A stretch of DNA of 64,000 nt from Selaginella tamariscina (Eukaryota; Streptophyta; Lycopodiopsida; Selaginellales; Selaginellaceae), in NCBI GenBank assembly GCA_003024785.1, contig PUQB01000062.1, positions 706,064 to 770,063 of the forward strand, written 5' to 3'. This document shows positions 19,448 to 52,930 of the stretch, one piece after another (position 1 is the stretch's first letter; each line of letters opens with the position of its first letter). The translations under genes were made by a program, and so were the position numbers. The notes under the pieces were generated by a model. That model was not told the DNA's origin and ran no database searches. It saw nothing but the letters and a program-made list of their open reading frames with translations.

Positions 19448-20167
19448 TGCCATATGTATGTGTGTGTATGATTGCAAGTTAGGAGTATGTCTTCGGTAAT
19501 CATAACTATATATATATATAAAGCTGGTGTGTATATGTAAGATCTCGTTTAGCAATCTCTCTTTCTCTCTCTACACACACACATACAATTTTTCATTTAT
19601 TGTGGCATTACACATTAGGTGTTTAGGAGTATATGTGTTTCGTTCTGTCATGAACACACACATATAATGTAGGTGTTACGTGTATGTGTTTATGTATATA
19701 AGGAACACATAATATATGTAAGATAGTTGTTTAAGTGTTTGTGTTGTGTGTCATATGCATTTGTGTGCATACATAAGAGCCGAAGATTAGTCTGTATGAT
19801 ATATTAAACACACAACACAAATACATTATATATATACATACACGTGTATAAATGTATGTATAGATCGTGCATACATCTACAAAGAGCCTTATATGATAAT
19901 AAATATTAATATAAAATCAATTATAATTAATATTTTTTAAGAATTTATGTACACCATATCATTAAAATGTATATATATAACTGAATTTATTAATATTTGA
20001 AGGTGAACCAGTCTGAAGGAATGCTTAGTGACGATGTTGTGGAGAAAGGTTATACATTGCTGTGTGTGTCGTATCCACAGAGCAACTGCCGGATTCGAAC
20101 AATACCTGAAGAGGAGCTTCTTTCTTACAGCTTGTTACCAGTGCAGATTAATACATATTTTAATTAA
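18959..20167 (+). CDS. FDC1: Ferredoxin C1, chloroplast [2Fe-2S] protein
   Basis: Plant-type ferredoxin of the FdC1 class, a plastid electron carrier with a C-terminal extension. Two intact exons: 18959-19249 and 20003-20167, together 151 residues. Exon 1 encodes a short transit peptide (MAALGGALSWHFAIASPANY) and the domain start KVYEVEMQHEGK. The cluster cysteines are in DCKLGVCMTCPAKL (CxxxxCxxC) and in LLCVSYPQS. SEGMLSDDVVEKGYTLLCVS and the tail RIRTIPEEELLS are typical of FdC1 rather than leaf ferredoxin. The 753-bp intron is full of (CA)n, (CT)n and (GT)n tracts. This is the only intact member of a local family of copies. A tRNA gene starts 63 bp after the stop. Confidence 0.93.
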
Positions 20168-20230
20168 TTAATATTGTATATAATTAAGTTTATGCGTCAA
20201 AGCGCATTCTATAACTTGTAAAACCTCTGT

Positions 20231-20304
20231 GGCCGCATAGCGCAGTGGATTAGCGCGTTGGACTTCGGATCCAAAGGTCGTGGGTTCGAATCCCATTGTG
20301 GTCG
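20231..20304 (+). tRNA. tRNA-Arg (anticodon TCG)
   Basis: A 74-nt cloverleaf. The acceptor stem GGCCGCA pairs with TGTGGTC, with discriminator G. D arm GCGC/GCGC, anticodon stem TTGGA/TCCAA around loop CTTCGGA (anticodon TCG), and T arm GTGGG-TTCGAAT-CCCAT. All stems pair. Confidence 0.95.
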
Positions 20305-20320
20305 TATGCATTTTATATAT

Positions 20321-28199: not shown

Positions 28200-31100
28200 T
28201 ATATGTTGCCGTTTTCGTCCATGGGACCTCCCAATTCTAGCTTTTGAACTGTCCAGAAGATCTTCAAACTCATCTTCATGCATTTCCACCCTTTGAGATG
28301 AGGCTACCACATCAGCAACTTGACGATACCCACGTATAGGCCTCTGGTCAAGATCATCGCCTTCAAAGTCACTGTCATCGCAATCTTGATGCACCAAGGC
28401 TTCCACATTGCCGCTGCCAAGTGCCAACAATAAGAACCAAATATAAACATAGCAAAGAATGTTACCTCCGGCATGTCAATGAAGGATATCCTGAGTCTTC
28501 ATCTACTTCTTCTTCAAGTTCATTCTCATCTTCAATGGCTATTTCCTCATCCAAATCCTCATCAAACAAGTGCCGTTTAGAGCTCCCTTCAAGGTCAATT
28601 TGATTTAGTGTCATTCGTTGACGACGTCTCCATAACCGTTGATTATAATATATATGCACCAATTTGGTCGTTCTTGCCTGAGTCAACCTGCAAACGGAAA
28701 GAAACAACTTAAAAACTAAAAACAATGCCATGAAGTCTTACTTGTTCCGTGCCAATGACTGTACATGCTTATATGCTGAAAAATTTCGCTCTGCAGCTGA
28801 ATTTGAAGCACATAAGCCAAGAACATTACATGCTACCCTCCACAGCCTTGGTACTTGCTTCTCAAACATACTGTGTGTTGCCCAAAGTGTATACGGATCC
28901 TTGTTCAGAACATGATCCATGAAATTGGCCACAGCTGGATTTGCAGGGCTTGTCGAAAAGAAATTCTTCCGAAGCTTAAAGTCAGAGTACTCACTACCAA
29001 TCAAGACGCTCATATCCAGTGGATTAGGATAGAACTGTCCAATAACTCGGTTAACATCTGCTCAGCATCAGCATCAAACTCCTCAGAGAACGAAAAGCGT
29101 GGATTTAAGCAATAAGCTGCACCAAATAAGTCGCAACTCTTATACTCCCTTTCTCGGTCAGCTAATATCTCTAGTAGAATTGCTTTTTGTCTCGCACTAA
29201 AGCCTCGAACTTGCTCTGTCTTCCGCTTGATCATTTTCCAAGCCTGCCAAACAAATCCCATTGTTGCATCAGTTCGATCAAATTCTCGAATAGCTTGGAA
29301 AACAGGTTTTAGCAAGTCGATGATCCGATGCACGACACCCCAGAAACCTTCAGCACCTTCGGTGCCACCTACAACCAGTCCTTGATAATTCATCCCAATC
29401 TCCCTTGCATTTCGATTTTGGTTGCCTAGCCATTCTTCGAATCTAGGATCTATAAACATGACAGTTAGTATTTCCTGCACTTGTTTGAGCCGGACCAGCA
29501 TGGTGTAATACGTTCCAAACCTATCAACAAAATAAAATATAGTCTACATTGAAAATAAAAATAAAAATAAATGGTTTACCTTGTGGTTGCAGGTCTTATG
29601 AGTTCTTTTCTGCAATGATTGTCTGTGCAGATATCACGATAAAGAGATAGCACCTCCCATGATTTCGAACAAAATTTATAAGTCCAGTAGCTCGTTCTAT
29701 GTGCCTTCTAATGAACTTGAGCTTGCACCAAGATCCTAGAACGAGATTGAGAGCGTGGCATTGGCATGGCACACTCCAAAGCAATGGATACTTTTCTTCT
29801 AGAAGTACTCCGGCTCTTTTCATGTTCGCTGCATTATCCATGACAATGGATAAAATGTGAAGTGCTTTATCTTGATCACCATAACGTGCTTGTATGCATG
29901 TTAATGCCTTATCAACCTCTTTAAAAATAGCATCACCTGAAACAACCAAGAGCCAAGACATTTAGATAGTATTAAATAACAAATCACTCACCAGATGAAT
30001 CCTTGCAAATGAAGCTTCCCCAGAAGTAATCCTGCTTCCTGTTGCATTAACAATCATCATGTTGCTAATATGTTCTGATTTTACGTTCCTCCATCCATCT
30101 GTGACAAGTGATAGTGGTTGTGGAATATGAGAAACTCGAGCTTCGTCGATGAATGCAGACATTTTGTTGACAACATCATTATACACTTTGTCCAGCAAAA
30201 CTGTTCGCAGGGCTGTCATCGAAGGCAAAATGAACATGTTGTACCTAAATGCTGATTTTTCTAGCCACTCTTTCATTGATTTGTTGAGTGCAACAGTGAA
30301 TGGAGTGGCAGTCTCATAAACCCACGCTGCAAATGCTTGTTGTGCCTCTTGTAGCTCAATTGCTGTTGAAGTTGTTTGTCCACCTCCTCCACTTGTAGTA
30401 GCAGAGGGAGAGGTTGGTGATGTCCGCCGTTGGCTCCCCCGTGTTGGTGACAGTGTCAATGCTCCACCGGAGCCACCATAATGGTAGCACGATTGAAAAC
30501 TGGGTGTGGCACCAAATCACTGAACATCCGATTCATTTTCTGAATGGTATCCTGCGCTTGGAGGTAGTGAATTTGTTTTAACCGCATCCGAACTTCTTCA
30601 TTGCTAATTGCTTCTAAAAACTCCCAGGCTTCCTCATCTTCCCAATCTGGAATTTTCGCTAGAGACCGGGATGCTTGTCGTCGAGGGCTATCATCTTGTG
30701 ATCCTCCTGCATTGAGAACATCTTCATCATTTTCGTCTTCTTCATATGCTTCATACCCTTCCTCCTGGTCACACCAACCACTTCATAAGCCGGCAATCGA
30801 GTTCGTGGCAGTAATCCGCAAGATGGGCTTGTAGAATTAGAGCGTGACATGCTTCTTCCTCTTCCAGTGTCGCTTCTACTTGAAGATGGTGAAGTGGACC
30901 TTCCTCGATTGCCGCCCCTTCCAGCGACTCTTCCAATTCCAAGTGGTGATGGTGATGGAGAATGCATGCGACTGTGTGAAGCGGAAGCATCCGAAGAAGC
31001 TGGAGCATGCCCAAGTCGTGAAGGACAAGAAGTCGATGAACTAGCCAATACCTGTGCCAGCGGCCATTCCAGTCGAAGATGAAGGATCTACCATTGTTTC

Positions 31101-34718: not shown

Positions 34719-34727
34719 ATTGTTACG
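34719..34727. repeat. Target site duplication, left
   Basis: ATTGTTACG, identical to 42872-42880. Confidence 0.9.
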
Positions 34728-34766
34728 GGGTCTCGGCGAAAAGGAGGCTCCGGCTCAGGAGGCTTC
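34728..34766. repeat. MULE terminal inverted repeat, left
   Basis: Imperfect complement of 42833-42871, with the blocks GGAGGCT and CAGGAGGC fully conserved. Confidence 0.75.
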
Positions 34767-34769
34767 ATA

Positions 34770-34845
34770 TTATTCTAGATATTCGCGGATATTCTAGGGT
34801 TATTCTAGCATATTCTAGAATATTCTCAAGAATATTCTAGAATAT
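34770..34845. promoter_or_regulatory. Subterminal TTCnnGAAnnTTC palindrome array (left)
   Basis: Repeated tattctag units; 34813-34825 is TTCTAGAATATTC, and further TTC/GAA units follow to 34842. The pattern matches heat-shock elements, but these may equally be transposase-binding repeats. Confidence 0.5.
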
Positions 34846-34905
34846 ATAAGTTTTTTTTAATATGCCGACTGGCTTAATAAAACATTATCCTAAACCCTAA
34901 ACCAT

Positions 34906-37900
34906 TTATCCTTGTAGCACCGGTGGGTCATGAACTCTGTTGCAATTCACCAGCAAACGGTGGACCTCCATGTCACTGAGCGATCGCCTTTGTAGAAAAT
35001 ATGTGACTTCCGGGTTCAAGCCAAGCACACGGCTATAGACGAAGTACATGTGTACACATGGGCTCCAACTTTTGCTCTTCTGAAATGTAGAACAACTGCA
35101 TGAAGGATAAGTATTAATAGTCACCTTTGCAGAGTCATTTCCTGCCGACACAACGAAAGCCTCCTTCCGTCCTCTAGCTGTCACTTCAACATTTCGCACA
35201 CAACCTAAAAACGTCTTGGCCTTGCGGAAATTCTTCTCTTGTTCCTTAGACATTTTTGTTGGAGTCCGAACCATACGTCCTTCGAAAGGTGGAATTGTTG
35301 TAGATCCAGCTCCACGTGGTGGCGATGGTGTTTTGTCCTTCTGACCCTCATCTACTCTTCCTGCCATCCCCTGTAAACCTTCCAGAACAAAGCCTGCATC
35401 CTGTAGTTCTCTGACCTCCTCACTTGTCAGCTTCGTTTCCTTGAGCACAGGCCAAACCGTTGGTGGTGTTGGAATTCGTGACCGAAGAATTTTGCCGTTT
35501 GGCCGCGTGAAACACCCTGAATCTTTTGGGCAGAACCACATCATCTGTTGTACATACTCCTCATTCCCCAAGGCATCAATGTACATTCGTTTTCCATAGA
35601 ATCCTGGTGCTGGCACTCTGCTTGGATAACCGATTGGTTTTCCACACAGAGCAGTTCCTTCCTGATTCATCCCCAAACACTTAACCTTACTGGATGCTCC
35701 GATTCGTCTGATGGCCCACTCTGTTTGAGCAATCTCTCTCTCCGAAACCTCTTCGAACCTTAACCTCTTTCTCCTGTTGTTTTGGACCACCCGCTCTGTG
35801 TACTCTACATCATGTCTGTGTGAACGTCGAGCATCAGACTGTTCTGTTCCTGTGACTGTTCTCCTAACAGTTTGCACTCGAACGTTAGTGGTACTCGTGA
35901 ACTCCGGGCTGGTCAAGTGTTCCTCGCCTTCCACCAGATTATAATTGTTGATGGAGATACACTTTTCCCCTCAGAGAGTTTGCGTTGCACTCGTTTCAAC
36001 AGAGTTTCCTTCGAAGGCCCTGACCCTGTATACCTCCCTTCTATTGCCGCTTTCACCTTCGCACTCTGCATAACTGCATCGGTGAGGTCTAACATTGTCG
36101 CCTCCAGCAGTGGTACTCTTTTGGCCAATCTTGCTCTTCTTGCTCTCGCGTGAATCACTTCAGCATTGTTTGTAGTTGGAACGCTCGCGAGTCCTTCTTC
36201 TGTCATGTCTCCCAGTTCCGCCATGGAGATGTGGTCCTCATGCCTGATCCACCAAGACAGCCATGTCTTCAAAGCTCGAATGTTTGACGCTCGTCCTTCC
36301 CAAAAAGACTCGAGAATTGCCAGTTGTTCTTTCTTAGATTGTTCATTCAGTGCTGCAGGCCAGGCACGAGCAAGCTTCATGTGTTCTTCGCGATGTTCTT
36401 CTGCGATCCATTTCTTTGTCACCTGACGCACGGATTGCATAAAGTGAAACAGACAGCTTCTTTCCCTCCCTTTCATCTTTGCTCCGTTGTTGAATACTTG
36501 GCGCAAGGCTATCCATATCGCTCCAGCCTCATCCGACATGAAACCAGCAAAGTTGACATTCTCCAAACCCTGCTTCTTACAAACCTCTAGCATTGTGTTC
36601 AAGAACTTCAGCACTGCAACATTATCTTCGCGGCACATATCTGCGTAAGCTATAGTCACCATGGATCTGACACTGCAAGAGAGCGTTAGATAACGAAGAT
36701 TAGAAAGTGTTATGAAGAGTTTTACAACTTACAATGGGTCATAAAGGTGTATTCCAATTGTCGCCCAGTCTGGTATGCGGTGCGTGTGGTCCAGAACAAC
36801 CCATTGATCATGAAGGTCTCCTCCACTTTGACACCTTCTGATGTACTCAACTCCTGAACCCGGTCCCTCAACTGTCATTTTGAAGATCAGAGGCTGCTCC
36901 TCAGCACCATGCAGTTCCATCCCTGGAACATGTATGACGTGAATGAAAGGTATTGGCAGCTTTGTCTTCAGCTCCAGAAGACCCTCGTAACCCTCTCTAA
37001 AGTGTGTCTCCTTCTGTCTTGATTGTGTAATCCAGTCCCGAGTCCTAAAGAAAAGGTCACGTCAGTGTGTAGAGATCTAAAAAAAATACCTTCGATGGTT
37101 TGTTAGAGGTTCAAGTTTTGAGAGTAAACCAGTGTACGAGACTTCTCCTTCTTCCTTGAAAAGTTCTTCAAAGATGAGCTCACGCGCGGCTTGAAACTCA
37201 ATCACTCGTTGATTGGTTCGCGGACTGCTCTTTACCACGTTGCTGACACTAGATCTGGCTCGCTGAACGTTTGAAGCTGACACTGAGGGGCTGACTGGAT
37301 GCTGATGAACACCTCTGTGAATGAACAACCTTGTAAAAGAAATGTCGTCTGGCAGAATGTAGTACACATAAGCCGGACAAGTGTGCACCAGCAATGGCTC
37401 CTCTCCACAATGCTTACATTTTATGCCTATTACTTTGCCTGTCTCAGTTGTCTTTGCCTTCTCCACAGCACCCTTGAAGTGACATTCATTTGCTTTCTTC
37501 TCAAAAGCCAAGTAGGGGCAGGTAGGATTGATGCATTGGAGATGTCCGACACATGAACTTCGACTGACTCGCGCCGGAACATGCCAGTGTGTTGTGCTCG
37601 GGTGTGTCCAATGGTAGCAGCCATCCTTGCGATTCATCCCCGAGTACTTCTCTGTGCTTTCTGTCTTAGGGGGAAGTTCGAAAATGACATTTCCATTGTA
37701 TATCTGCGGTAGTTCAGAGACTCGTTTAACTTCAGACGAACCAATGAGATCCTTCCCTATCCTACATTTGTCTGCTCTTAGAAGACACACCAGCATGGAT
37801 TCCTCACGCTCCTCTGTCCGCAACCTGAACAACGGGCCCTTTGCCGGGCACAATGTGTAAAAGACAAACTGGTTTGATGCATTGCCTTCTGGTAACAACT

Positions 37901-38069
37901 CCACATCTTCTCCAGAACTCGCAGAAACTGACATCAATTGAACCACATGTATACTGAACCAACAAGGAATGTTGAAAGCAATGTGAAGATCATGTTCAAA
38001 CACAAAAGCATTTCCATCTTCATCGACTGGGAAATCTTTGTCAATGCCTTCATAGGTAACTCTGGCCAT
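34906..38069 (-). CDS. Mutator-like transposase with GCM1/WRKY-like zinc finger and SWIM finger
   Basis: Catalyses cut-and-paste movement of the element. Exons on the minus strand: 38069-37090, 37044-36733 and 36666-34906, about 1,000 residues. Exon 1 (MARVTYEGIDKDF...) has a Cys/His-rich N-terminal finger: CVGHLQCINPTCPYLAFEKK, then CKHCGEE and HRGVHQHP, the GCM1/WRKY type seen in some MULEs. Exon 2 ends in the first catalytic Asp, QWVVLDHTHR. Exon 3 has the second, NFAGFMSDEAGAIW, followed by CLFHFMQ (the C/H insertion typical of MULEs), the likely catalytic Glu in TTNNAEVIHAR, and a C-terminal SWIM zinc finger, CSCSTF...CVHMY. One single-base frame change near 35930 separates the DDE and SWIM parts. 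The stop is at 34906-34908. Confidence 0.87.
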
Positions 38070-39459
38070 GACAACGCAAGGAGAAAGCTCGGTGGTTTAG
38101 GAAAGCAAAGCAAAAGATTAAACACACTTTCCTTACCAAAAAAAAATTACAATCGTTAACAATAAACGTGAATACACGTTTGTATATAATTAATTCTATG
38201 CTGCCCAGTCACAGTGTTCTTAATGATGTCCTCTCTAGTATCACCGATTTAATTTAATTTCTACCTTTTATGATTTGAAATATCTTCACATTTACCAATT
38301 ATTCACATATTTTAAAATAAACCCTAAATATTAATGTCACATTTATTCCGTAGGGTTCACTGTTTTCATTGCGGCTAGGGTTTTTTGGTAGATAGGGTTT
38401 ACTGTTTCCATTGCGGCTAGGGTTCTTTCAATCTCAGATCTGTTTCCACTGCGGCAGATCCAGAGGGTTTCTTCAATCTCAGATCTCAGAGTTACGGTTT
38501 CCACTGCGGCGCCATCCATTTCGACTCGATTCGTGCAGCGCCCAAGTATAACAATGGAGATTTCTGTGCCGATTTAGATTCTCGGCACCATCCTGCTCAG
38601 CCGGCGGCCACAAGGTATGTGTAATTTCTGTATTTTATGATTTGCTGCTCAAAGTATTTCTTTTTCCAGAGATATAGGGTCTTCTTATTTGTGCCGACTG
38701 AGAGCAACGGCACCATCCTGGTTCAGTCGGCAAACACAAGGTATCGTCGATTTATTTATTTTTTTCCTTGCGGCTCAAGTATACGTGTCACAATGTTTTT
38801 TTTCAGAGTTAATGGGTCTTTCCATTTGTGCCGACTGAGAGTGACGGCACCATCCTGGTTCAGTCGGCAAAACAAGGTATTTTCGATTTGTTTTTTTTGC
38901 TTTCTGGCTCAAGTATTCGTATCACAAGTTTTTTTTTCAGAGTTAATGGGTCTTCCCATTTGTGCCGACTGAGAGTGACGGCACCATCCTAGTTCAGTCG
39001 GCAGCCACAAGGTATTTTGAATTTTTTTTTTTTGCTTTCTGGATCAAGTATTCGTATCACATTGTTTTTTTTCAGAGTTAATGTGTCTTCCATTTGTGCC
39101 GACTGAGAGTGACGGCACCATCCTTCTTCAGTCGGCAGCCACAAGGTATTTTGAATTAGTTTTTTTTTCTTTGCGTCTCAAGTATTTCTTTTAAAACAGT
39201 TAATGGGTCTTCCCATTTGTGCCGTCTGAGAGGGACGGCACCATCCTATCTCAGTCGGCACCATTATCTCTTCAGTGCCGTCTGAAGAGGTCGGCACAAA
39301 CTATCTCAGTCGGCAGGTTTTTCTTTCTACATCTCTCTGCGACTGAGAGGGTCGGCACATCTAGCTTGAGTCGCAGGCCACAAGGTTTAGTCATCTTTGT
39401 TTGTTTTTTTATTTTGTCTAATCAATTGACTTGTGTGTTTGCTTTCCAGAGTTTACAAA
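38070..39459. promoter_or_regulatory. Divergent promoter region of the MULE
   Basis: Lies between the two start codons. The transposase-proximal 450 bp are AT-rich. From 38350 there are three copies of a gtttccactgcggc-like block, then the motif array at 38560-39310. Splice-like borders (ttttcag|agttaatggg and cacaag|gtat) surround each array unit, so the array may be transcribed as repeated 5'UTR exons of the methyltransferase gene. Confidence 0.55.
38560..39310 (+). repeat. Array of about 134-bp units with a GCCGACTGA/TCAGTCGGC inverted repeat
   Basis: gtgccg cores start at 38566, 38691, 38828, 38962, 39096, 39219 and 39275. The full units contain gtgccgactgagagtgacgg, caccatcctggttcagtcgg and cacaaggtattt. 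The outer GCCGACTGA and TCAGTCGGC are exact complements about 21-23 nt apart, and gtgccg/cggcac form a smaller nested inverted repeat. Copies of gccgactg also occur near both element ends (34864 and 42758). Confidence 0.85.
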
Positions 39460-42400
39460 ATGGTGAGAGCTTCAAAACGTCTACTAGAGACTGCGCCTGA
39501 TGAAGAGCCACGGGAAGAGAAGAGGATATCGAAGCAGAAGCGAGGCAAGAGAGGAGAACCATCTAATGTAGCAAAGGAGGATCCTCCAGTGACTCAGTCT
39601 GGAGTAGTAGCAGTTGAGCAAGAACAGCCTCCACCAACAATCACAGATTTCCCGGAGAGCTCGTCGCAGTTGCCTCCTTCATCCGCTGAGGTTGCAGTCC
39701 TGAACGAGCAAGTGCAGATGACAGAGGCTGAAGCTAGCGAGGACGACTTGGAGGAGGCAGTCAGCAAAAAGAGAGGCCGCGGGAAAGCTGATTCAAAAGG
39801 CAAGAAGGCGAAGAGCGATAAGGAGCCGAAGGAGTTATACAGCATACCGGCGAGCCTGCATTTGGAGAGCTCAGCAAACCTGCTCGACAAAATTACTATC
39901 AAGGGACTTGGTGATCCTCCTGATGTGCCCATCTGCAGAATACATTCAACGAGGTGGTTCGACGAGTGAACCCAGGGGACTTGGACAGGCTGGTGTCATC
40001 GTTGAAGAAGGCTGGTTATCTACGCAACACGGCCTTGTTCATTCTGTCCATCGGAGATCGACTCACTGCTGAGGAGCTATCGGAGCTGTCGAAGGACACG
40101 ATTCAGTACGAGCAGCACCGGTCTTTCGAGCAAGCTCTTACTCAGCCGGAGTACAAACAGTGGGCTTCAAGGCTCTCAAACAGGAAGTTTAGCTGCTGGG
40201 ACGGGAACCATAGGCTACAGGCTTTGCAGAAGCTGTACCGAGAGGATGCAGAGGACAACCAGCGATGGGCTATTCGCGTTCGATCGAGTTTCATCTCCAC
40301 GGAGAACCTCGACATTCTTCAACTGGTTTCGATGTTCCAATCGATTAACATGTGAGTATTTTCTTTTCTTTTTGTTAAGAGTTTAGACTTACAGTTTCGT
40401 TGAACAGATCTTCAGCAACATCTGTGGAAACAACGCTACCACATATTCTCCTCGCTGTAAAGGCGGTCTGCACTAGTACAGAAGGAACTCAGAAAATCCT
40501 CGAGTCACTCACGGAGGTTGATCGTCTTGAGGTGCGGAAGTGGAAGGAGAGTTCACAGGAAAGACGGCTTGGCATCCTCTTCCGAACCTGATCTGCGCAA
40601 AGATCCTTTTCAAGGTAACCTCCGATTTAATTTATAGGAAAGAATTTTTAACTTATTCTATGTGCAGAACGAGATCGACGATGATCTCGACAGAGCAGTC
40701 ACCAGTGCTAAGGGCAATTCACAGGTTGAGGTGAACCTGAAGCAGCTAGTGTACAAGAAGCATGACAAGCGTATGCACAAGTTCCTCTCCATCATAGACC
40801 CAGACTTGGGGGAGGAGTGGTTCCAGAAGGTGACAAACATCTCTCATAAGCAGTGTCGCTGGATGGGCATTGAGAAGCTGTATGCGATGTCAAAGGCGAA
40901 GATTCCAAACATGCTGCGACTCCGATACCTGAACAAGCTCACCCGTCTCGAATCCAAGGCAGAACAACAGACACTTGGGCTACCGGGCATGCAGGACAAA
41001 GAGTGGATCAAGTGGTTCACCTTGGACTTATATTGGAAGGCTGTGCGAGGAAGCCATTCAGATCCTTAAGGGGTTGCGAGAGGATGGTGAAGAAGTTGGA
41101 ACGGATGTCGACTTCATGAGCTGGTTTGACGAGATGAGAACTCGGAGCAAGTGCCTGGTCTTTCAGCCCTTCCATGACTGCATACGGTTCACTTATTCGA
41201 TGGAGCCGAATGAGTTTCTGGAGCGTGAGGAATCTGCGCGTCGGATGATATGGAGGTAAGCTTTCAATCCAGCATTGCTACTGTCTGACTTTGTGTTGCA
41301 GGTTCATACTGGCGAAGCAAATGACACCGTCCCATACGATGAAGCTGTGGACAGATCATACAAGCGAGCCTCACATGTGGTCGAAGAGCAGAGGAGCTCT
41401 AACACCGTTCGAACGGGAGCATGTTCCATTCTGGCTCGACTGTCCGTCGCAACAGCCACCAGCTTGGGAGAGCTCACTATTCGACATGCACGCAATGATC
41501 TACCAGCGATTGTTTGGGAGCCAGAAGAAGTAGAGGCTATCAAGAAGAGCAAGATGAAGAAGACGGTGCGGAAGACAACTACACCTGCAAAGGGATCGGG
41601 AGCGGGACCAAGCTCTTCTACAGCACCTCCGCCGGCATTCGACTTTACAATCAATGAGGTACAGCCACTTGTAGCTAGTTTGGACATCAAGGACGACCTG
41701 ATGACCTTCATCCCGACCCTGGCTGCATCCCGTGGATCCTACGACCTAGCTGTGTGCGACATGGAGGAGATGAGCAGGTCTTTCTTCGAGCCGGGTGCTT
41801 CCCAGACAGAGGTGTACACCAAGCTCCGACAACAGGTTGACAGACTACATACGGTTGAGTCACAAACGTTGTTCCAGGAAGTGGTAGGTGAATACGGCTT
41901 CAACCTCATCATCCTCGACTTGCCCAATGAGCTTGTATATGGAGGTGCTAGCATCAACAAGGACATTGTGCAGCTAGATCCGGTGAAGTTTGAGGAGGCC
42001 TTGCAGTTCAGTGGAATGCACTTGGCAGCGAGTGGTTTCATGGTCGTCTTCGCGAGTTCTCCTTCTGTTTCGGCGGTGATTCAGGCGGCTGCAGTAATCA
42101 ACTTGGAGGTTGCAGGGACTTACAGCGTCTACCGTGCACGAGGCTGGGGATACCGTGACAAAATTAAGGTAAGCTAGCTATTCAAGTTCAAGTTTAACTT
42201 GGTCTATGTGGCAGGATAACTTGTTAGTTCTCTTGGTGCTGCAAAGCTCTGAGAAGAAGTCGAAGAGGCCAAACCCTCTGGCGTTGACGAACACGATCCT
42301 CGTCGACACTGCCGACCGTTATCAGGAGGCTTGGTAAGGAAGTACTTTGCTATGTTTATCCTAATGGAAGTTTGTGCAGGATTATGATTCAACCGAAGAG

Positions 42401-42677
42401 TGTTCGACTCATGCAGCTTTTGATCGAGCGTCTCAGTAGACCTGGCGACCTAGTCTGGGATATTGGTTCCGGAACCGGGTCATCATTGTTAGCTGCCGTC
42501 GAGCTCGGAAGGAATATTATAGGAACCGAGAAGAGTTTCGAACTCTCTAGGTTGGCAACAAACAAGCTTGCAGAGAACATTAGACCAGAAGAGTTACCTA
42601 CTCAAACACCTCCACGTCCAAGCGTAACTGGTGGTTCGAGAACTGCAGCTTTACTTAAGATGAAGAAGAAACTTTAG
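39460..42677 (+). CDS. ParB-like domain fused to a permuted DNA methyltransferase (MULE cargo gene)
   Basis: Start at the ATG at 39460 (MVRASKRLLETAPDEEPREE), a lysine-rich disordered N-terminus. Exons end and begin at about 40351/40408, 40617/40669, 41255/41303, 42171/42215 and 42333/42380; the stop is at 42675-42677. Domain 1 (39930-40350) is ParB-like: FNEVVRRVNPGDLDRLVSSL, then FSCWDGNHRLQAL, equivalent to the ParB G-x-H-R box. A helical middle region follows. Domain 2 is an amino-methyltransferase with motif IV (LIILDLPNELVYGG, about 41905-41945) preceding motif X and motif I (SRPGDLVWDIGSGTGSSLLA, about 42437-42500), then NIIGTEKS. That order, IV before X-I, is the beta-class layout of N6-adenine/N4-cytosine enzymes. 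The catalytic box reads DLPN instead of [DNS]PP[YFW]. Single-base frame changes near 39940, 40545, 41042 and 41527 break the displayed frame, but sense is kept on each side. Confidence 0.8.
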
Positions 42678-42754
42678 CTAATGTATATTGAGTAATAAAT
42701 TAAGCTAATATAAAAAAAATAAAAAGAAATACAACAGTTTTAATAGAATTCTTT

Positions 42755-42830
42755 TTTGCCGACTGAGGCCAATACTGCCGACCAGAAAGAATATTCCAAA
42801 ATATTCTAGAATATTCTTGAATATTCGAGC
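42755..42830. promoter_or_regulatory. Subterminal motifs and TTC/GAA palindromes (right)
   Basis: tgccgactgag at 42757 and gccgacc at 42776 echo the internal array. 42804-42826 is five perfectly alternating TTC/GAA units spaced by two bases, the form of a strong heat-shock element. Confidence 0.5.
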
Positions 42831-42832
42831 CC

Positions 42833-42871
42833 AGGCCTCCTGGGCCCCAAGCCTCCAAAATGGCGACACTC
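42833..42871. repeat. MULE terminal inverted repeat, right
   Basis: Imperfect complement of the left end (34728-34766), ending ...ggcgacactc. Confidence 0.75.
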
Positions 42872-42880
42872 ATTGTTACG
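42872..42880. repeat. Target site duplication, right
   Basis: ATTGTTACG, identical to 34719-34727. Confidence 0.9.
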
Positions 42881-43372
42881 TGCATGTGTTTATGTATATA
42901 AAGACACTAATATACTATTTGTGTGTGCATACATAAGCGCCGAGGATTAGTCTGTATGATATGTCTTAAATCGCAAGTTAAGACTGTAATATATATAATA
43001 ATTGAGGAGTTTTAGGGATCAAATATGTATAAACAAAACATAAAACATTTTGTATACACGTATATAAATGTATATATACAGCATACATGCATCTACAAAG
43101 AGTCTTATATGATAATAAATATTAATATAAAATATATATGAAAATACAGTGTCAGCTTAATGAATGTACTTAATTTTAAACACCCTCTTTTAAGGATTCA
43201 TGTACCACTACTATATAAATATATATATATAACTGAATTTAAATATTTGAAGGTGAACCAAGGAATGCTTAGTGACGATGTTGTCGAGAAAGGTTGTGCA
43301 TTGCTATGCGTGTCGTATCCACAAAGCAACTGCCGGATTCGAACAATACCGAAAGAGCTTCTTTCCTTATAG
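42881..43372 (+). pseudogene. FdC1 copy 4, intron remainder and exon 2
   Basis: Resumes the FdC1 intron right of the MULE. Exon 2 at 43253-43372 is open and reads VNQGMLSDDVVEKGCALLCV, then SYPQSNCRIRTIPKELLSL and a stop, keeping the fourth cluster cysteine. It lost Ser-Glu after VNQ, and the C-terminus is shortened. With no intact exon 1 and an 8-kb insertion in the intron, it is a pseudogene. Confidence 0.88.
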
Positions 43373-43474
43373 CTTGTTACCAGTTCAGATTAATATATAT
43401 ATATAGTTTAATAAAATCATAGATAAATACGTATATAATTAAGTTTTGATGCATGTTAACCTGTCAAACGTTGT

Positions 43475-43547
43475 GGCTGCATAGCGCAGTGGATTAGCGC
43501 GTTGGACTTTGAATTTAAAGGTCATGGGTTGAATCCCGTTGTGGTCA
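43475..43547 (+). pseudogene. tRNA-Arg pseudogene (anticodon changed to TTG)
   Basis: Clear relative of the tRNA genes at 20231 and 21994, in the same position after an FdC1 exon 2. The anticodon loop is CTTTGAA, giving TTG (Gln-like) instead of TCG. The T loop has lost one base (gggttgaatccc) and the anticodon stem is mismatched. Not expected to be functional. Confidence 0.82.
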
Positions 43548-43562
43548 TATTTTCAACCTTAA

Positions 43563-45528: not shown

Positions 45529-48500
45529 CTAACAAAAACCACCGAGGGGTTGCCATCTCCAAAAAACTTTAGCTCTCAATTGGCCCGGACACCGTACCAA
45601 TCGTCCTAGCACAGGGAGCCACCGCTCCTCATATACACCATACTCAGCTATGTCACACGTGTCTCTGGCTTGCTCATAGGCTGTGGCCACCAAAGATACT
45701 AACTGAACCCATAGGAATGCTAGGGCTCTTGCAGAGACCAACTTCGCCCTTGGAAGACACCAGCATTCTTGCTCTCCAGATTGTCCAGAGTGTGACGCCC
45801 CGAAGAAAATACCATTGTTGAGCAAAGAGGCTGGGTTGTTCCATTGGTTCAACCATTAGGCCCCCCGGGTCAAAGACTTGTCTCTGCTCCACTGATCCAG
45901 GGACACGCCAAACTCCCCTAGAGGCCTTTGCATGGCCTGCATGCTCACCCAAACAAGCTACTTCCCATCCTATTATAGAATCCTCACCCCATCCCAAACG
46001 TTGGACCAGCGACATCGTTCGAAACCACATGACTCGGGCCCTCCTACAGTCCCATAAGTAGTGTCGTTCTGTTTCTGGTAACCCACACGCACCACAACTT
46101 GTGTTTGGCAGACCTCTAATATTCACACACACTGCTAAGCTGTTTTGAAGAAGGAGCCACATGAACGTCTTTATTGCACTGGACCACTCCCCCTTCCAAA
46201 TCTCTGGGCCGACACTGTGCCAGGGATCTAGGAAGGCCTACTTTAATCAGGTGCTCCTGCAGCTTTGAAGGTGTCAACTTGCCAACAAACAGGGAACGAC
46301 CCATTCGTGGTTCATATCCAAAGAGTTCCCGCCCTTGTGCATGCTTCCATCTCCACATCTTCGGGTCCAAGTCAAGCACATCCACCGTTTGGCCACGAAA
46401 CCAATATAGTTGGTACCACTTTCCATGACGTACCTGCGGATCCACCACCGGCCGCTTCGGGCTCATGTTGACCCCCTGACCAGTTGTGCATCCACCAGCT
46501 CTGGTAGAGGGATGAAGCTAACTATGTGAGGCGTAAGTAGACCTTCCCTACCTGGCTGGAAACATGCTCCCTCGCCTGCCTCTAGATCCGCTACATACCA
46601 TATCATACCTGCTAGAACTACCCAGTCGCCAGTCCTGCGTATTGGTTGTGGCCAACACCACCGAAAGGCTTGAGCACTTGCACTCGAGTAGATGCTAAGA
46701 TTTTAATGGCTGTGATCTCACTAGCTGTTAAACTCCGCTGGGATCTGTTTGGCTCCCATTGTCGGACCCATTCAATCGCTGCTCCTTGTCTCATGTCCAG
46801 AGTCCTCAGTTGGCCAACCGTTTCGTAAACCTGCCGCATGCCATCAACAATAGGCAGCTTTTACACCCTGAGGCATGCGCTCATCACCCACTGGGATCCC
46901 GATACCCTCTGGGTGAACCAAGTCATGTAGGAACAAGGGCATAGAAGTGACCTCCTCCAACCTGGATGGCATTACTGACTGCAACGTGGCCCGAAGTTCC
47001 TCCCAGTGTCTCAACAAAAGTGCCACTAAACGACCCCCTTGTAGATGTGTCCCTGAACGGTGGGCGGCTGAACAACCACCTCGGGTCCTCTGCCCACTGT
47101 GCTCCCTGCACTTTGGACGGACGTCTTGGTTTGATTCGTAGCATCCTTGCCCGGAGCATGATCTTCCATGCTTGATTGCCGGGAAATAGGCTGCGAATCA
47201 CCATCTTCACCAGCAAAGCCTTCGCTGTCGGCTCGGGGGAACCAATCCTAAACCACCTTGCGCTCGTGATCTCGCACAAGAATCCCACCGAACACGTGCC
47301 TGGTACTTCCTCCTGGACAAATCGCCCTGCCAGACATAGGCTCTAACCAGCAATTGTATCTCCTTAAGGGTTCTATCCGTAAGGCTCCATATGCCCGCGT
47401 AGAACCACAAGGATCCTAGTAAGACCGCATTGGCTACAATAGCTCTGGCTGGTAAAGATAGTTTACGACTACCCCACCATGTGAGATGGCCGAGAAGACG
47501 TTGCAGCACAAATGCACTCTGTCGTCCCAGGTCATATTGGGCACCCACCTGCACACCCAGGTATCTCGTTGTTTGCTCCTGCTCTAACCAATCAAAGCCC
47601 CACTGAGACCCCCAATTCAACCGTGGCTGCTCACTAAACCAGATCCCTTTCGACTTATGCCAATTGGTCCTTGCTCCAGCTGCAATGTTAAAATGATCCA
47701 GCAAGTGCTTGAGTCTGTTCAGGTTCTCCCACGTTCCACGCACCAGGAAGCACGTGTCATCTGCAAAGTAGCTCCCAAGTAGTTCCTGTGCAACTGGAGG
47801 TCCGAGGTCCTCAAGAGCTCCTGTGCACTGTGTAGGGGTATCCCATAGACAGGGGCCGGACGAAGACGTGTCAGGAACGCGTGCATCGCTTCCGCCTGTA
47901 TGAGGAAAAGGTAGGGTGCCAAAGGACACCCTTGGCGAACAGATCGCTGGAGGTACACATGTCGACCTAGATAGCCGTTGATCAAGAGACGGCTACCTGA
48001 ATTCCTATAAAGTCGGGCAGTCCACTTAATGAATGGTTGAGGAAAGCCCATCCTCAACATCGTACCTTCCAGGAAGTCCAATCTACCCGATCATAAGCCT
48101 TTTCTCCATCCAGCAGTAGTGCACAATACGGAACCTGTTCCTCCCTAATGGTTTCTCCTGCTAACAACATCGTGGCCAGATTCTCGTACAGTTGTCTTCC
48201 TTGCAGGAATCCATTCTGTGCATGGTTAATCACCACTCGCATCACTGGTTGCAGCCGAGTCGCCATCGCTTTAGCGTATATCTTGTACACCGAGTTGAGC
48301 ATTGTGATCGGCCTCCAACTTCGCACCTCCGCCAAGTCTGCCAATCCCTCCTTCGGGATTAGAGCAATTACACCTTCCGTGATTGCATCTGCCCAAGGAA
48401 GTAGTGGGTTGCTGTCTTTTGCCACAATCCATTCCTGAAGCACAGCTTCTCCCAGCCAACGCCATGTTTGTGCAAAGAACTCCATTGGGAGACCATCCAG

Positions 48501-50163
48501 CCCCGGCGACTTATCACGCCCATTAAGTGCCAACATTGCTTGCCGCAGTTCAGTGACCGTGAAGGGCTTTTGCAGAATCAATTGCATCTCCTCTGTAACC
48601 CTCGGAACAAGCGCCGACCACACCGCCGTGCATGCAACGACCTGTCTCTCGTCCATGGTTCAGCTAGAAAGAGTTGTTCAAAGTACTGAGATCCCACATC
48701 CAGCATGCCATCTACATCGGTCCGTGTAATCCCTGCAGAATCTCGTAATCCAAAGATTGATGTTCCTTTCGATGTCGTCGGATCACTCGATAAAATTCAG
48801 CATCCAGTTTCCTCTCACTTTTATACCATCTCAAATCCCTGAGTCGATGACAGTCCCCTGCTTTCTCACTCTCCAACTGCTCAAGGTGGTTTTGTAGGCT
48901 CTCCTCCCTTGCAGTTAGCCATGGATGGTCAACATATCTAGCTAGCAAACGTTGGCAAGCAGCAAGGCTACCACGGACCGCTCGGATACGTCCAAAGACC
49001 TTTGAGTGTCGCACCCGTTGCTCTTCCCGACAAGACGTCGACGCATACCTTAAGAATCCCACCAGGTCAGCATCTCCATTCTCTGATCTCCTTCTCCATT
49101 CCTCCTCCAGGCGGTTCATCACTTGCGGATCCCTTACAAGTCTCCTAGTAATTGCTGCAGGCCTCATATTAGCACCTGGTCGCGCTGAGCACTTTACCGT
49201 GAGGAGAACTGGTGAGTGATCTGATATCCTGAATTCCCGACGGCACGCAAGAACCACTGCGCTCCATAAACCAAGCAGAGAGGTAGAAGCGGTCAAGTCG
49301 CTTGCCGATCTTGGCTCCACCTGGAAGAGTCCCTGTCCACGTGTATCTAGGGATGTGCGGGATAAACCTCTCCATTCCGTAGGCATCCGAAATCCCCATT
49401 GCTGCTCTCAGAGCTCTCCAGGCTTGTTGCTCACGTTGCCCCTGCGCTGCATTCAATGTCTGCCCTGCCACAATTGGGTTTGTCGAATCGTCTTCCAGCT
49501 CCAACATGTTGAAGTCTCCAGCAATCAGCCACTCCTCTACATCCCCAGGTAGCCAATCCAGTAGTTGCTTCCACAGTTGGGTGCGCTCTCTCGACCATCT
49601 CTCTGCTGGTGCATAAATGTTAAGTATCCCGAACCTTGTCCCCCATAGGTCCAGAATCACACATTGAGCTCGTCCACGTACCAATATCTCATGGCGCTGA
49701 ACATGACCCACCCATCGTCTGGCAACACCAACCATTGTGCCACTGTTCGTCCTATGGCTGGATTCCAGAATGTGGTACCCTTAGGGAAAATCACCCGTCC
49801 TTCTCCCGTTCCTCCCGCTGGCACGTGATGTTCTTGGATCATCACAACATCCACTGATTGACGAAGGCCTATCTCAGCAATATTCTGACCAATTCGAGCA
49901 CGCCGCCGAATACCCACCGCATCATTATTAGACACACCATTCACATTCCAGCTGAGTATCCTTAGCTCAGTCATTAAGAAGAGGTCGAGCCAGGATCCGG
50001 GATCTGACCGGTGTCCTTCACCCAGGAGTGAATCCGGTAGTCTCAGAGGCGCTGCAAACCGCAGCTCAACGATTACGTACTCCGCATCCGGGACAAAGTA
50101 GTCAACCAAGATCTGGGCTGAGCCTCCTGCACTACCCATCATGGACTTGAGGAATGCTGTCAA
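45529..50163 (-). CDS. LINE ORF2: AP endonuclease and reverse transcriptase (frameshifted)
   Basis: Endonuclease start MTELRILSWNVNGVSNND (about 49974), then VVMIQEHH, LIAGDFNML and RYTWTG. Reverse transcriptase: NGRDKSPGLDGLPMEFF (about 48510), RSWRPITMLNSVYKI, FLQGRQLYEN, LLLDGEKAYDRVDW, VRQGCPLAPYLFLI and the catalytic FADDTCFLV (about 47770). After a thumb-like region (to about 47200) the C-terminus has CGACGLPETERHYLWDC, a zf-RVT-type finger (about 46060-46110). Reading frames switch at least at about 49700, 49250, 48680, 48070, 47800, 47230 and 46130, so no single protein can be read. Confidence 0.85.
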
Positions 50164-50280
50164 GTCTCCAACCTCCGCAAAAGATGGAACCAGGAGGGTA
50201 CATCACCAATGCCTTCCTTTCGTGTAACCAACAGTTCCCTAACACCCTCCGGTCCCACTCTCCACGGATACAACCTCCTT

Positions 50281-52930
50281 AAGACAGGTCGAGGCTGCAC
50301 ATCCACTTGGTTTGCAGACTGGTGAGTCTCTCCCAGAGTACTGGTCTTCGTCGGGGAGGCGCCTTATCCTTTTGCTGTTTGGGCTGACTTCTCCTTTTCT
50401 TTAGTTTGGTACTTAGTCGACCTAGCTTTGGGCCATTCTTGCTTCCCAACCTACTCGCTCCTCCATCCTTGGGTGCTTCTTGGGATCCCTCAACCTCCAT
50501 AGGTGACTCCTGGTCCAAGGCTGCAAACGGATTTGTGACTTGGACTGGATTGTCCTTGGGGCTGGTTGGGCGAGACAAACGGGCCTTCTTCGGCGTCTGC
50601 CATTGTCCCTCTGTAGGTTGCTGGTGGTCCACTGGCTTACTCCGAGCCTTCTTGGCCTCCAACTTCCTGCATTTGTCCACCGTATGACCATGCATTTTAC
50701 AATAGTGACATGCTCCCGCTCCACCCTTGAGCACCAAACGAACCTTCATACCAACTGCACGTAGAACCTCCGGGACCGAGTTTGGCGATGCACCTGGAAC
50801 CATCATCCTCACCGGTCCTTGTACACCATTAACTGGTTCAGTAACTATGTACTCTGTGGCTTGCAAATCCTGAGCTAGCCGAGCATCAACTCTTCCGTCT
50901 CGCAGAAATAGGAGGGAAGCCCCCACAGTTCAACCTCTCGTTCTTCATTTGCTGCTATAACCGCCTCTTTGTCATCCACCGAGAACGAGGGCAGCCACTC
51001 CAAAAGTCTTGCACGATATTGCCCCATGCGTAATATCTTACGTTCCAGCAAAGGGCCCATGAATGAAGCATCATTTATGACAGCCTCAAAGCAGCCTCTG
51101 CCCAAGTTTCGAAGATACTGCACAGCACACTGACTATTCGGGTCTCCAAGCGCTGCATTGATCCAATCTCGTGTTTCCCCAGTCGGGGGGTAACGCCCCA
51201 GAAAGATCAATGTGCATCTATCTCCCTGCTCCTCCATCCTCGACTGTGACTGTCTCAGCACATCATGCTCCTCATCTGCCAGTCCAAAACGCAATTCCAG
51301 CTGGTCCTGATCGTTCATCACCAGGCTCGAATTTGGAGAGCGAGCTCCTTGCGGAACTCGTACTGCTCGCGACCTCACTGGAGGGCCATTCATCGCTGCC
51401 TTAAGCTTCTCTCCACCCACACCATGCCAAGCGTTTACCGGTGGTATTGGCTGTGGGCGGTCTCTCAGCACAGAGGCCTCAATAGTAACCGGCAGTGTTG
51501 TCTGCCGTGGAGAAATACTAGGCAAAGAGGTACTAGGCAGGGGAGTCCCCACTTTGTCTTTGTCTCCACCCTGGCATGGATCTACCGCCAGCCTAGCAGG
51601 GACACTAGCTGAAGAGCCCGGGTTCCCATCCATAGGTGCAAACACTGAGGACAATGGTGGGAGAGACGTGCCACAGAACGCCCTCGGAGTGGCATTGAGT
51701 GCCTCTTGCGTAAGAGGGGGGCTCCAAACTGTCACTGCTCGTTCCCCAGTTTCCCGACCTGGAGAGCTTGGTCTATCCACACCCTTCCCTTTCAATTGCA
51801 GCTTTTCCCATGCCTTGTCGTCAGCTGCCTTTCTCCTCAGCTGGTTTGCAATGCGAACCCCTTCGAGTATGTCTTCTAGATCACCAGATCGACTCCACAC
51901 ATACTCAGACGGGAGGGGTGGGGTGTCCGCCCCCTTCCAGTGAATCTCGCATAGGCTTGGTTCCACGCGATGCACCCTAAACCCCTCGACTGGCCAGCCA
52001 AAGGTCTCTTTGCCCATCCTGTGGAGAGCCTCTTCCACTGACTCATCTTTCTCACACCGCATGCGTGCAAAGACCCACTGTTCCGACTCAAGTTTCTCCA
52101 TCAGCACCTTCCTCATGCACAGACTGACCCATTCCACCCGAATCAGGTTTGCGTAGTCCAGGCCAAGTCCTGAAGGGGTCCCAACAAATGTGCCAGCAGT
52201 CGAGTGGTCTCCACGGAGTTTCTTTGCCCAGTCCTCTAACTCAACTGGAACTCTCGACAATGTATCCAGCACACCTACACCAGGATCCACGTGCGGTTGA
52301 ACAGTGGTATCTCCTCTTTTCACTGCTGCAATTGATGCTGCCTGGTTTGCAAGTTCATCTGCTCGAGAGTTCTCACCGCGACGGATTGCCGTAATATCAA
52401 ACTTATCAAACTGGTTAACCAGTATCATCACCCGCTCGTGAAGCACTTGCAATGCTGGCCTCTTCACCGCTACCACTCCCATCACTTGATCAACCATAAG
52501 CTTGAGTCACACCAAGCTCGAACGTTCCGGACTCCCTCCTCACGAGCCATGCACAAACCAATCGTAAGCGCCCAGTACTCCGCCTCATTGTTTGTCGCCT
52601 TAAGAATTGGCTGGATGCATTCTCCCAAGGTATAGTCACTGTTGGAAAGAAGCAAAGCCCCTGCACCAGCTGCCCCTCTCGGATTGTCCTTGACTGCCCC
52701 ATCCGTGTACAAATCACCCCAATCTTCCTGGTCCTCTTCATCACTCGACTCTGACAGCCCGATGAGTTCTCTTCACTCAAACCATCCGAATCCTCAGCTC
52801 CATCCGACACCGGCTGAACCTCCAACATTGGTTGAACCTCCTCGTCCGACTGCTCATCTTGGTTCACCGCAGCCTCCTCTGATCCCACTTCGCTTCCTTG
52901 CAAATCCATCCCCCTTGTCCGCACTACCAT
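50281..52930 (-). CDS. LINE ORF1 with N-terminal RNase H-like domain and CCHC knuckle
   Basis: After an acidic leader (MVVRTRGMDLQGSEVGSEEA) the frame reads an RNase H-like domain: YTDGAVKDNPRGAAGAG (about 52710), NNEAEYWAL, WCDSSL and, after a one-base shift near 52490, QVMGVVAVKRP and NSRADELANQAA. All four acidic positions (D, E, D, D) are visible. A long linker precedes a DUF4283-like block (CTLIFLGRYPP to YFCETEELM, about 51240-50900) and a CCHC knuckle CHYCKMHGHTVDKC (about 50715-50675), then a basic Pro-rich tail. A second one-base shift lies near 50900. In plant LINEs RNase H normally follows the reverse transcriptase; here it leads ORF1. Confidence 0.75.

Follow-up and report, generated by a model that had tools for sequence, protein, structure and literature searches.

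Proteins that join a ParB-like domain to a DNA methyltransferase have been published as accessory proteins of transposons in brown, green and red algae (PMC12477816), and the accessible sections of that paper cite Iyer 2011 and Petroll 2025 for the green and red algal transposons. In Ectocarpus, the transposon Sola1-1_Ec32 is described there as encoding an accessory protein of 1104 amino acids (aa) with ParB-like and N4C/N6A methyltransferase domains (Genome Biol 2025, PMC12477816); in its table, Sola-1 is given with the values 1, 1989, 2 intact copies and 0.17%, under column heads that are only partly visible. Here we describe an element at positions 34728–42871 of a 64,000-nucleotide stretch of Selaginella tamariscina DNA (the window). 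The element is of Mutator-like element (MULE) type, and within it two divergent multi-exon genes start mid-element and run outwards: a transposase gene on the minus strand and, on the plus strand, a gene encoding a ParB-like/permuted amino-methyltransferase protein (the methyltransferase gene). From comparisons within the window and across the genome (300.7 Mb in 1391 contigs, the window being the end of contig C971), we consider the window element to be a frame-broken copy of a very numerous two-gene Mutator-type transposon, whose accessory protein is probably kept for the element's own use and would recognize element DNA.

The element is flanked by a perfect 9-bp target-site duplication, ATTGTTACG (34719–34727 and 42872–42880). 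Its inverted termini, at 34728–34757 on the plus strand (beginning GGGTCTCGGCG) and at 42842–42871 on the minus strand, are short and imperfect, with 14 of the first 22 positions matching when counted by eye. Relative to a ten-copy consensus, built from the window copy and nine others, frame-shifting deletions number four in the methyltransferase gene of the window copy and one in its transposase gene. As assembled, the window copy has no intact coding frame for either protein.

Nine further copies were retrieved from the genome. They are about 97–99% identical over their main blocks, and in all of them both genes are present with unchanged order and orientation; on the left side, two of them, L040 and L044, diverge or are truncated. 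Both ends were located in eight copies, the window included, and the 9-bp duplication was found in seven of these: it is perfect at the called edge in five (the window, L042, L044, L046 and L047) and shifted by 1–2 bases in L039 and L043, while L041 has none. In L040 and L045, the left end is lacking in the fetched stretch. When up to three mismatches were allowed, a 41-base word from the methyltransferase gene occurred 446 times in the genome (233+213), one of the same length from the transposase gene 417 times (213+204) and a 40-base left-end word 322 times (163+159), with zero occurrences of the backward controls for the gene and end words. These counts, together with the further copies bearing the same gene pair, rule out a one-off insertion or a chance domain match.

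The two genes also travel together. Among the exact matches listed (contigs up to C527), at least 65 of 96 transposase words had a divergent methyltransferase partner 3.5–8 kb away, and at least 66 of 100 methyltransferase words had a divergent transposase partner at the same range, the median distance between the divergent words being 5.5 kb. Similarly, at least 26 of the 37 exact left ends listed (contigs up to C520) had a methyltransferase word 5–9.5 kb inward. These partner counts are lower bounds, inexact partners lying outside the exact-match lists. The other 11 of the 37 listed left ends, with no listed exact methyltransferase word at that distance, may be gene-less or degraded copies.

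The same gene pair was found in a second family. A genome search with the profile PF01555 gave 739 first candidates, of which 150 were scored, all 150 above the cut-off. Seven of these places were opened; those at C565, C516, C1016, C50 and C1293 belong to the window family, and those at C571 and C531 to a second family, family B. The family B copy at C571 (L051–L053) has a divergent two-gene layout like that of the window element. Segments of its methyltransferase gene are 58%, 48% and 72% identical to those of the window element, its transposase exon 1 is 56% identical, and blastn of L051 against the window element gave no match at 1e-10. The transposase gene of this copy is interrupted by frame breaks, and its left end was not found. 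The family B methyltransferase matched PF01555 with an E value of 6.6e-10 (39.7 bits), and a family B catalytic word occurs 217 times in the genome; the words behind the counts of 446 and 217 contain motif IV of the methyltransferase, and the counts are no test of the conservation of that motif. The simplest reading of these alignments would be that the gene pair predates both families. Next to the family B copy (L052 1–639, plus strand) lies the C-terminal SWIM part of a third transposase, about 30% identical.

In the window, the methyltransferase gene is made of six plus-strand exons (39460–42677), and the majority of ten copies gave an open consensus frame of 992 aa. Exon 1 (39460–40351) contains the ParB-like region (about 39844–40351) with its DGNHR box and is followed by exons 2 (40408–40614) and 3 (40668–41255). 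Exon 4 (41302–42168) bears motif IV (41917–41928, plus strand); a long reading frame at 41260–42177 is out of the methyltransferase frame before about 41490. After exon 5 (42215–42333), exon 6 (42380–42677) encodes the half that binds S-adenosylmethionine (SAM), corresponding to PF01555 positions 165–219, with motif I, DIGSGTGSS, at 42459–42485 on the plus strand. This C-terminal SAM-binding half matched PF01555 (N6_N4_Mtase) at 38.6 bits, above the cut-off of 26.7, with an E value of 1.4e-9; its profile is that of a DNA methylase and not of a non-methyltransferase family. The best solved relative was MboIIA (E 0.00053). A protein search with the methyltransferase consensus scored 8000 candidates and found no relative among them at E up to 1. 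The order of the motifs, IV before I, is that of permuted (beta-class) amino-methyltransferases.

The canonical motif IV is D/N/S-P-P-Y/F/W. In the element it reads DLPN, as it does in 37 of 37 covered copies (two of the 39 lack coverage here) and in the two copies of family B that were read, which rules out decay of the window copy alone. The aromatic residue that ends the motif is thus replaced by Asn in the window family and in family B. When motif IV was aligned with that of three phage enzymes, these had DLPY, DIPY and DPPY, the DLPY enzyme being an annotated adenine-specific methyltransferase. As aligned, the first substitution of the element's motif occurs within the phage-enzyme group, and the final Asn in none of the three enzymes compared. 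Motif I has exactly this sequence in family B and in 30 of 36 covered copies of the window family. DLPN would mean either that the chemistry is altered or that the domain binds rather than methylates.

The N-terminal region is probably ParB-like. Both families conserve the stretches DVPICRI...NE.VRRVNP.DL..L...KKA.GYLRNT and CWDGNHRL, and thereby the Arg-bearing box DGNHR, whose counterpart in ParB is GExRWRAA. Exact DGNHRLQA is present in 34 of 39 copies, with one not covered and four altered or gapped. A search of the PDB with the ParB-like part returned only two weak, unrelated matches. The original prediction, made from this one stretch, had been of a ParB-like domain joined to a permuted amino-methyltransferase; the methyltransferase half of that description holds, with PF01555 above its cut-off and motif IV before motif I, while the ParB call is marginal.

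Both genes have been under purifying selection. For the methyltransferase gene, comparison of 39 copies with the consensus (450 synonymous and 578 nonsynonymous differences) gave a nonsynonymous to synonymous ratio, pN/pS, of 0.373. This set excludes six loci (repeat place or twin contigs) and four family B loci, and gapped codons were skipped. By region, the ratio was 0.30 in the ParB-like region, 0.36 in the middle, 0.37 in the methyltransferase part and 0.68 in the N-terminal tail. For the transposase gene, with 12 loci pooled and 65 differences of each kind, synonymous and nonsynonymous, pN/pS was 0.29. Because decay after insertion pulls pN/pS towards 1, the master copies were under real constraint. 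These data support the conclusion that the methyltransferase gene is an integral, selected component of the element.

The transposase gene comprises three minus-strand exons. Exon 1 (37090–38069) encodes a Cys/His-rich N-terminal part, exon 2 (36733–37044) the first catalytic D, and exon 3 (34906–36672) the second D, CxxH, E and a SWIM-type motif; the frame-breaking deletion of the window copy lies near 35941 in exon 3. The ten-copy majority consensus is an open frame of 1019 aa, in which position 36303, where base and gap were split 5:5, was read with the base, as in the window. All three exons are open in at least one copy, L039. By inspection, residues D412, D478 and E602 form a DDE (Asp-Asp-Glu) triad, with C504xxH507 between the second D and the E, and a CxC...CxH motif of SWIM type stands at residue 956. 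In a relative that is 31% identical, P0001, the D, D and CxxH are also present, and the sequence does not extend as far as the E. The MULE profile PF10551 was not listed for this transposase in Pfam at an E limit of 10, and we therefore file the element as MULE-type only; SWIM PF04434 gave E values of 0.0058, 0.04 and 0.011, all below the profile cut-off. The element had been predicted to be complete, and its target duplication, its DDE/CxxH and SWIM-type motifs and its short, imperfect inverted termini agree with this, but both genes are frame-broken. Elsewhere in the genome, 16 identical-scoring PF10551 matches (95 bits) lie in open frames of 433–673 aa; this looks like another, canonical MULE family that was recently active.

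Repeats occur between the genes and near the ends of the element. The intergenic stretch holds a tandem array of 4.5 × 134 bp (38661–39260) with TGCCGACTG/CAGTCGGCA words, and that of family B an array of 10.9 × 39 bp, the units of which hold the perfect palindrome CCCAGTCGGCATGCCGACTGGG. The 9-base word CAGTCGGCA is common to both intergenic stretches, occurring on both strands, 10 times in that of the window element and 24 times in that of family B. When the two array units were shuffled and tiled, some 9-base word appeared three or more times in each in only 35 of 2000 trials. Neither TGCCGACTG nor CAGTCGGCA occurs in the remaining 55,856 bases of the window. Single plus-strand copies of TGCCGACTG lie near the left (34863–34871) and right (42757–42765) ends of the window element. 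In the family B copy, a similar word is found close to the right end. Repeats of GAATATTC/TTCTAGAA at subterminal positions (34780–34848 and 42788–42829) complete the arrangement; GAATATTC repeats are found in family B as well, and the word is less specific, with 5 occurrences in the element and 7 elsewhere in the window. The array and end words are candidate sites that the accessory protein may bind. The subterminal repeats are alternating GAA/TTC units at a 2-base spacing, also present in the family B copy, and in this we take them to resemble heat-shock elements.

Our preferred explanation is that the accessory protein would use the intergenic repeats and the sites at the ends to recognize the DNA of its own element. 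There it would either methylate element DNA or act as a SAM-dependent, DNA-bound regulator, and the divergent promoter and transposition would be tuned as the outcome. With Asn in place of the catalytic aromatic residue, either methylation or regulation may apply. An active self-marking enzyme would place N6-methyladenine (6mA) or N4-methylcytosine (4mC) on element DNA and so guide the transposase, evade host silencing or limit copy number. We think this unlikely: the conservation of motif I and the retained D and second P of motif IV, in a setting where a phage enzyme annotated as adenine-specific has DLPY, are in its favor, and the accessible part of PMC12477816 makes a like proposal for the brown algal protein, but Asn holds the aromatic position in every covered copy of the window family and in both family B copies read. 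Base modification by the element's protein, proposed in the original prediction, is not supported by a motif IV that lacks its aromatic residue. A catalytically dead DNA-binding regulator, in which the SAM- and DNA-binding parts were kept and methylation was lost, is likewise possible and likewise not what we would expect. Pseudo-methyltransferase partners of the METTL14 type are known and provide the model. Such a regulator would fit the repeat arrays that adjoin the gene and the finding that two families, about 50% diverged, both have Asn where the aromatic residue is expected and conserve the other motifs; an altered DLPN active site could still work, however. In a plasmid-like form of self-recognition, a ParB-domain protein whose methyltransferase domain has a conserved, noncanonical active site would bind tandem palindromic intergenic sites and single end sites, marking or clustering copies and controlling expression or transposition; we regard this as rather doubtful. 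The likelihoods attached to these readings overlap and are not required to sum to one.

The repeat arrays may instead be ordinary promoter or transposase-binding repeats, unrelated to the accessory protein, a reading that we take seriously without favoring it. DNA transposons commonly carry subterminal or promoter repeats bound by transposases, and the shared word also sits near the element ends; nothing direct stands against it. By contrast, it is very improbable that the methyltransferase gene is a passenger of the Pack-MULE kind, captured a single time from the host or a bacterium and then simply copied along. The frame breaks in the gene and the 11 partnerless left ends would suit a passenger, but the gene, its strand and its layout are alike in a second, diverged family, its words are about as many as those of the transposase, and we reject this reading on the pN/pS of 0.37 across copies. 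The original prediction had treated the gene as part of the element, and the nine further copies, the second family, the word counts and the selection on the gene all uphold it, but the partnerless left ends suggest that some copies may lack the gene. Several points weigh against our preferred explanation of an accessory protein that is kept by the element and recognizes its DNA. The methyltransferase gene has at least one frame-shifting indel in 45 of 45 compared sequences (35 of which span the gene end to end, and some of which are the same copy fetched twice), with only one such indel in four of them; many of these are single-base indels, in which assembly error and true decay are indistinguishable here. 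The bootstrap over copies that places the methyltransferase pN/pS at 0.33–0.41 gives too narrow an interval, the copies being related and not independent. DLPN may mean that there is no catalysis. ParB is absent from the Pfam listing (E limit 10, with HMMER filters dropping most matches above 0.1), and the hhalign comparison with eleven ParB proteins was marginal, with 33 columns in register at an E value of 0.069 and 10 of 200 column shuffles equaling it. The second half of the ParB-like part alone gave E 0.057 (12 of 200 shuffles equal), and omission of a 42-column insert gave 95 columns at E 0.015 (3 of 200 equal). It may be the transposase or host factors that bind the repeats. Finally, the shuffle test of the shared array word was run once and on units chosen after they had been seen.

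The rest of the window contains other mobile sequences and genes. Two tRNA-headed stretches (19935–20307 and 43188–43550) are about 82% alike, have short repeats downstream of them and may represent a tRNA-derived family of short interspersed elements; tRNA-Arg was found at 20230 and 21993 and tRNA-Gln at 43474. The minus strand carries a fragmented long interspersed element (47207–52506), whose endonuclease, reverse transcriptase and RNase H-like parts are spread over separate frames. A hAT-like exon at 29962–30516 has a DUF659 match below the cut-off, and an exon match to TatC (PF00902) was obtained at E 6.6e-30. For a genome this large, such an exon suggests a photosynthetic eukaryote, and it looks to be of green-plant type.

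Compared with known systems, the idea and the architecture of the element are already known. The additions are a MULE-type carrier in two abundant families, the measured selection, and DLPN with the shared arrays. Neither DLPN nor the arrays had been part of the original prediction. Our search of open-access papers found no Mutator or MULE carrier of a ParB-methyltransferase, and no mention of ParB was found in the accessible part of PMC12695648. The original prediction that no plant MULE with this cargo had been described may be right as far as that literature goes, but ParB-methyltransferases as transposon accessories had been published, as the accessible sections of PMC12477816 make clear. 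A ParB-methyltransferase-like gene is placed as a selected part of two very abundant MULE-type families, beyond the giant algal elements. With hundreds of near-identical copies and candidate binding arrays, self-marking of transposon DNA with 6mA or 4mC becomes testable, and DLPN allows the writing of any such mark to be put to a stringent test.

With MULEs, the element shares the 9-bp duplication, a DDE transposase with CxxH and a SWIM-type motif; it differs in that PF10551 is unmatched, the termini are short and imperfect, and an extra gene is present. Bacterial and phage ParB-methylase fusions (Bce_0392 and polyvalent proteins, in the accessible part of PMC5512222) likewise fuse a ParB/Srx-like domain to an amino-methyltransferase, and the element's protein retains the conserved Arg of their ParB box, in the form DGNHR. 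Unlike those fusions, the element's gene has a eukaryotic exon structure and a DDE transposon as its carrier. In a tblastn search of phage sequences, the matches listed (15 of 302 records) all fell within residues 676–812 of the 812-residue query, its C-terminal part, and of the 137, 69 and 4 pattern-matching stretches found in viral_contigs, none was confirmed as a viral relative. The bdelloid N4CMT is also a bacterial-type amino-methyltransferase in a eukaryote that is linked to transposons; as described in the accessible part of PMC8885841, N4CMT belongs to the host, bears a chromodomain and silences transposons, whereas the gene described here rides on one. Sola1-1_Ec32 resembles the element in that a single protein, roughly 1,000 aa long, combines both domains, the ParB domain being marginal here; in each case its gene lies inside a DNA transposon and on the other strand from the transposase gene. 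In contrast to that element, which by its description in the accessible sections of PMC12477816, the only basis of this comparison, belongs to the Sola-1 superfamily and is 21.5 kb long, the window element is MULE-type and 8 kb long, and it brings two families with 446 and 217 gene words, measured selection, DLPN and repeat arrays.

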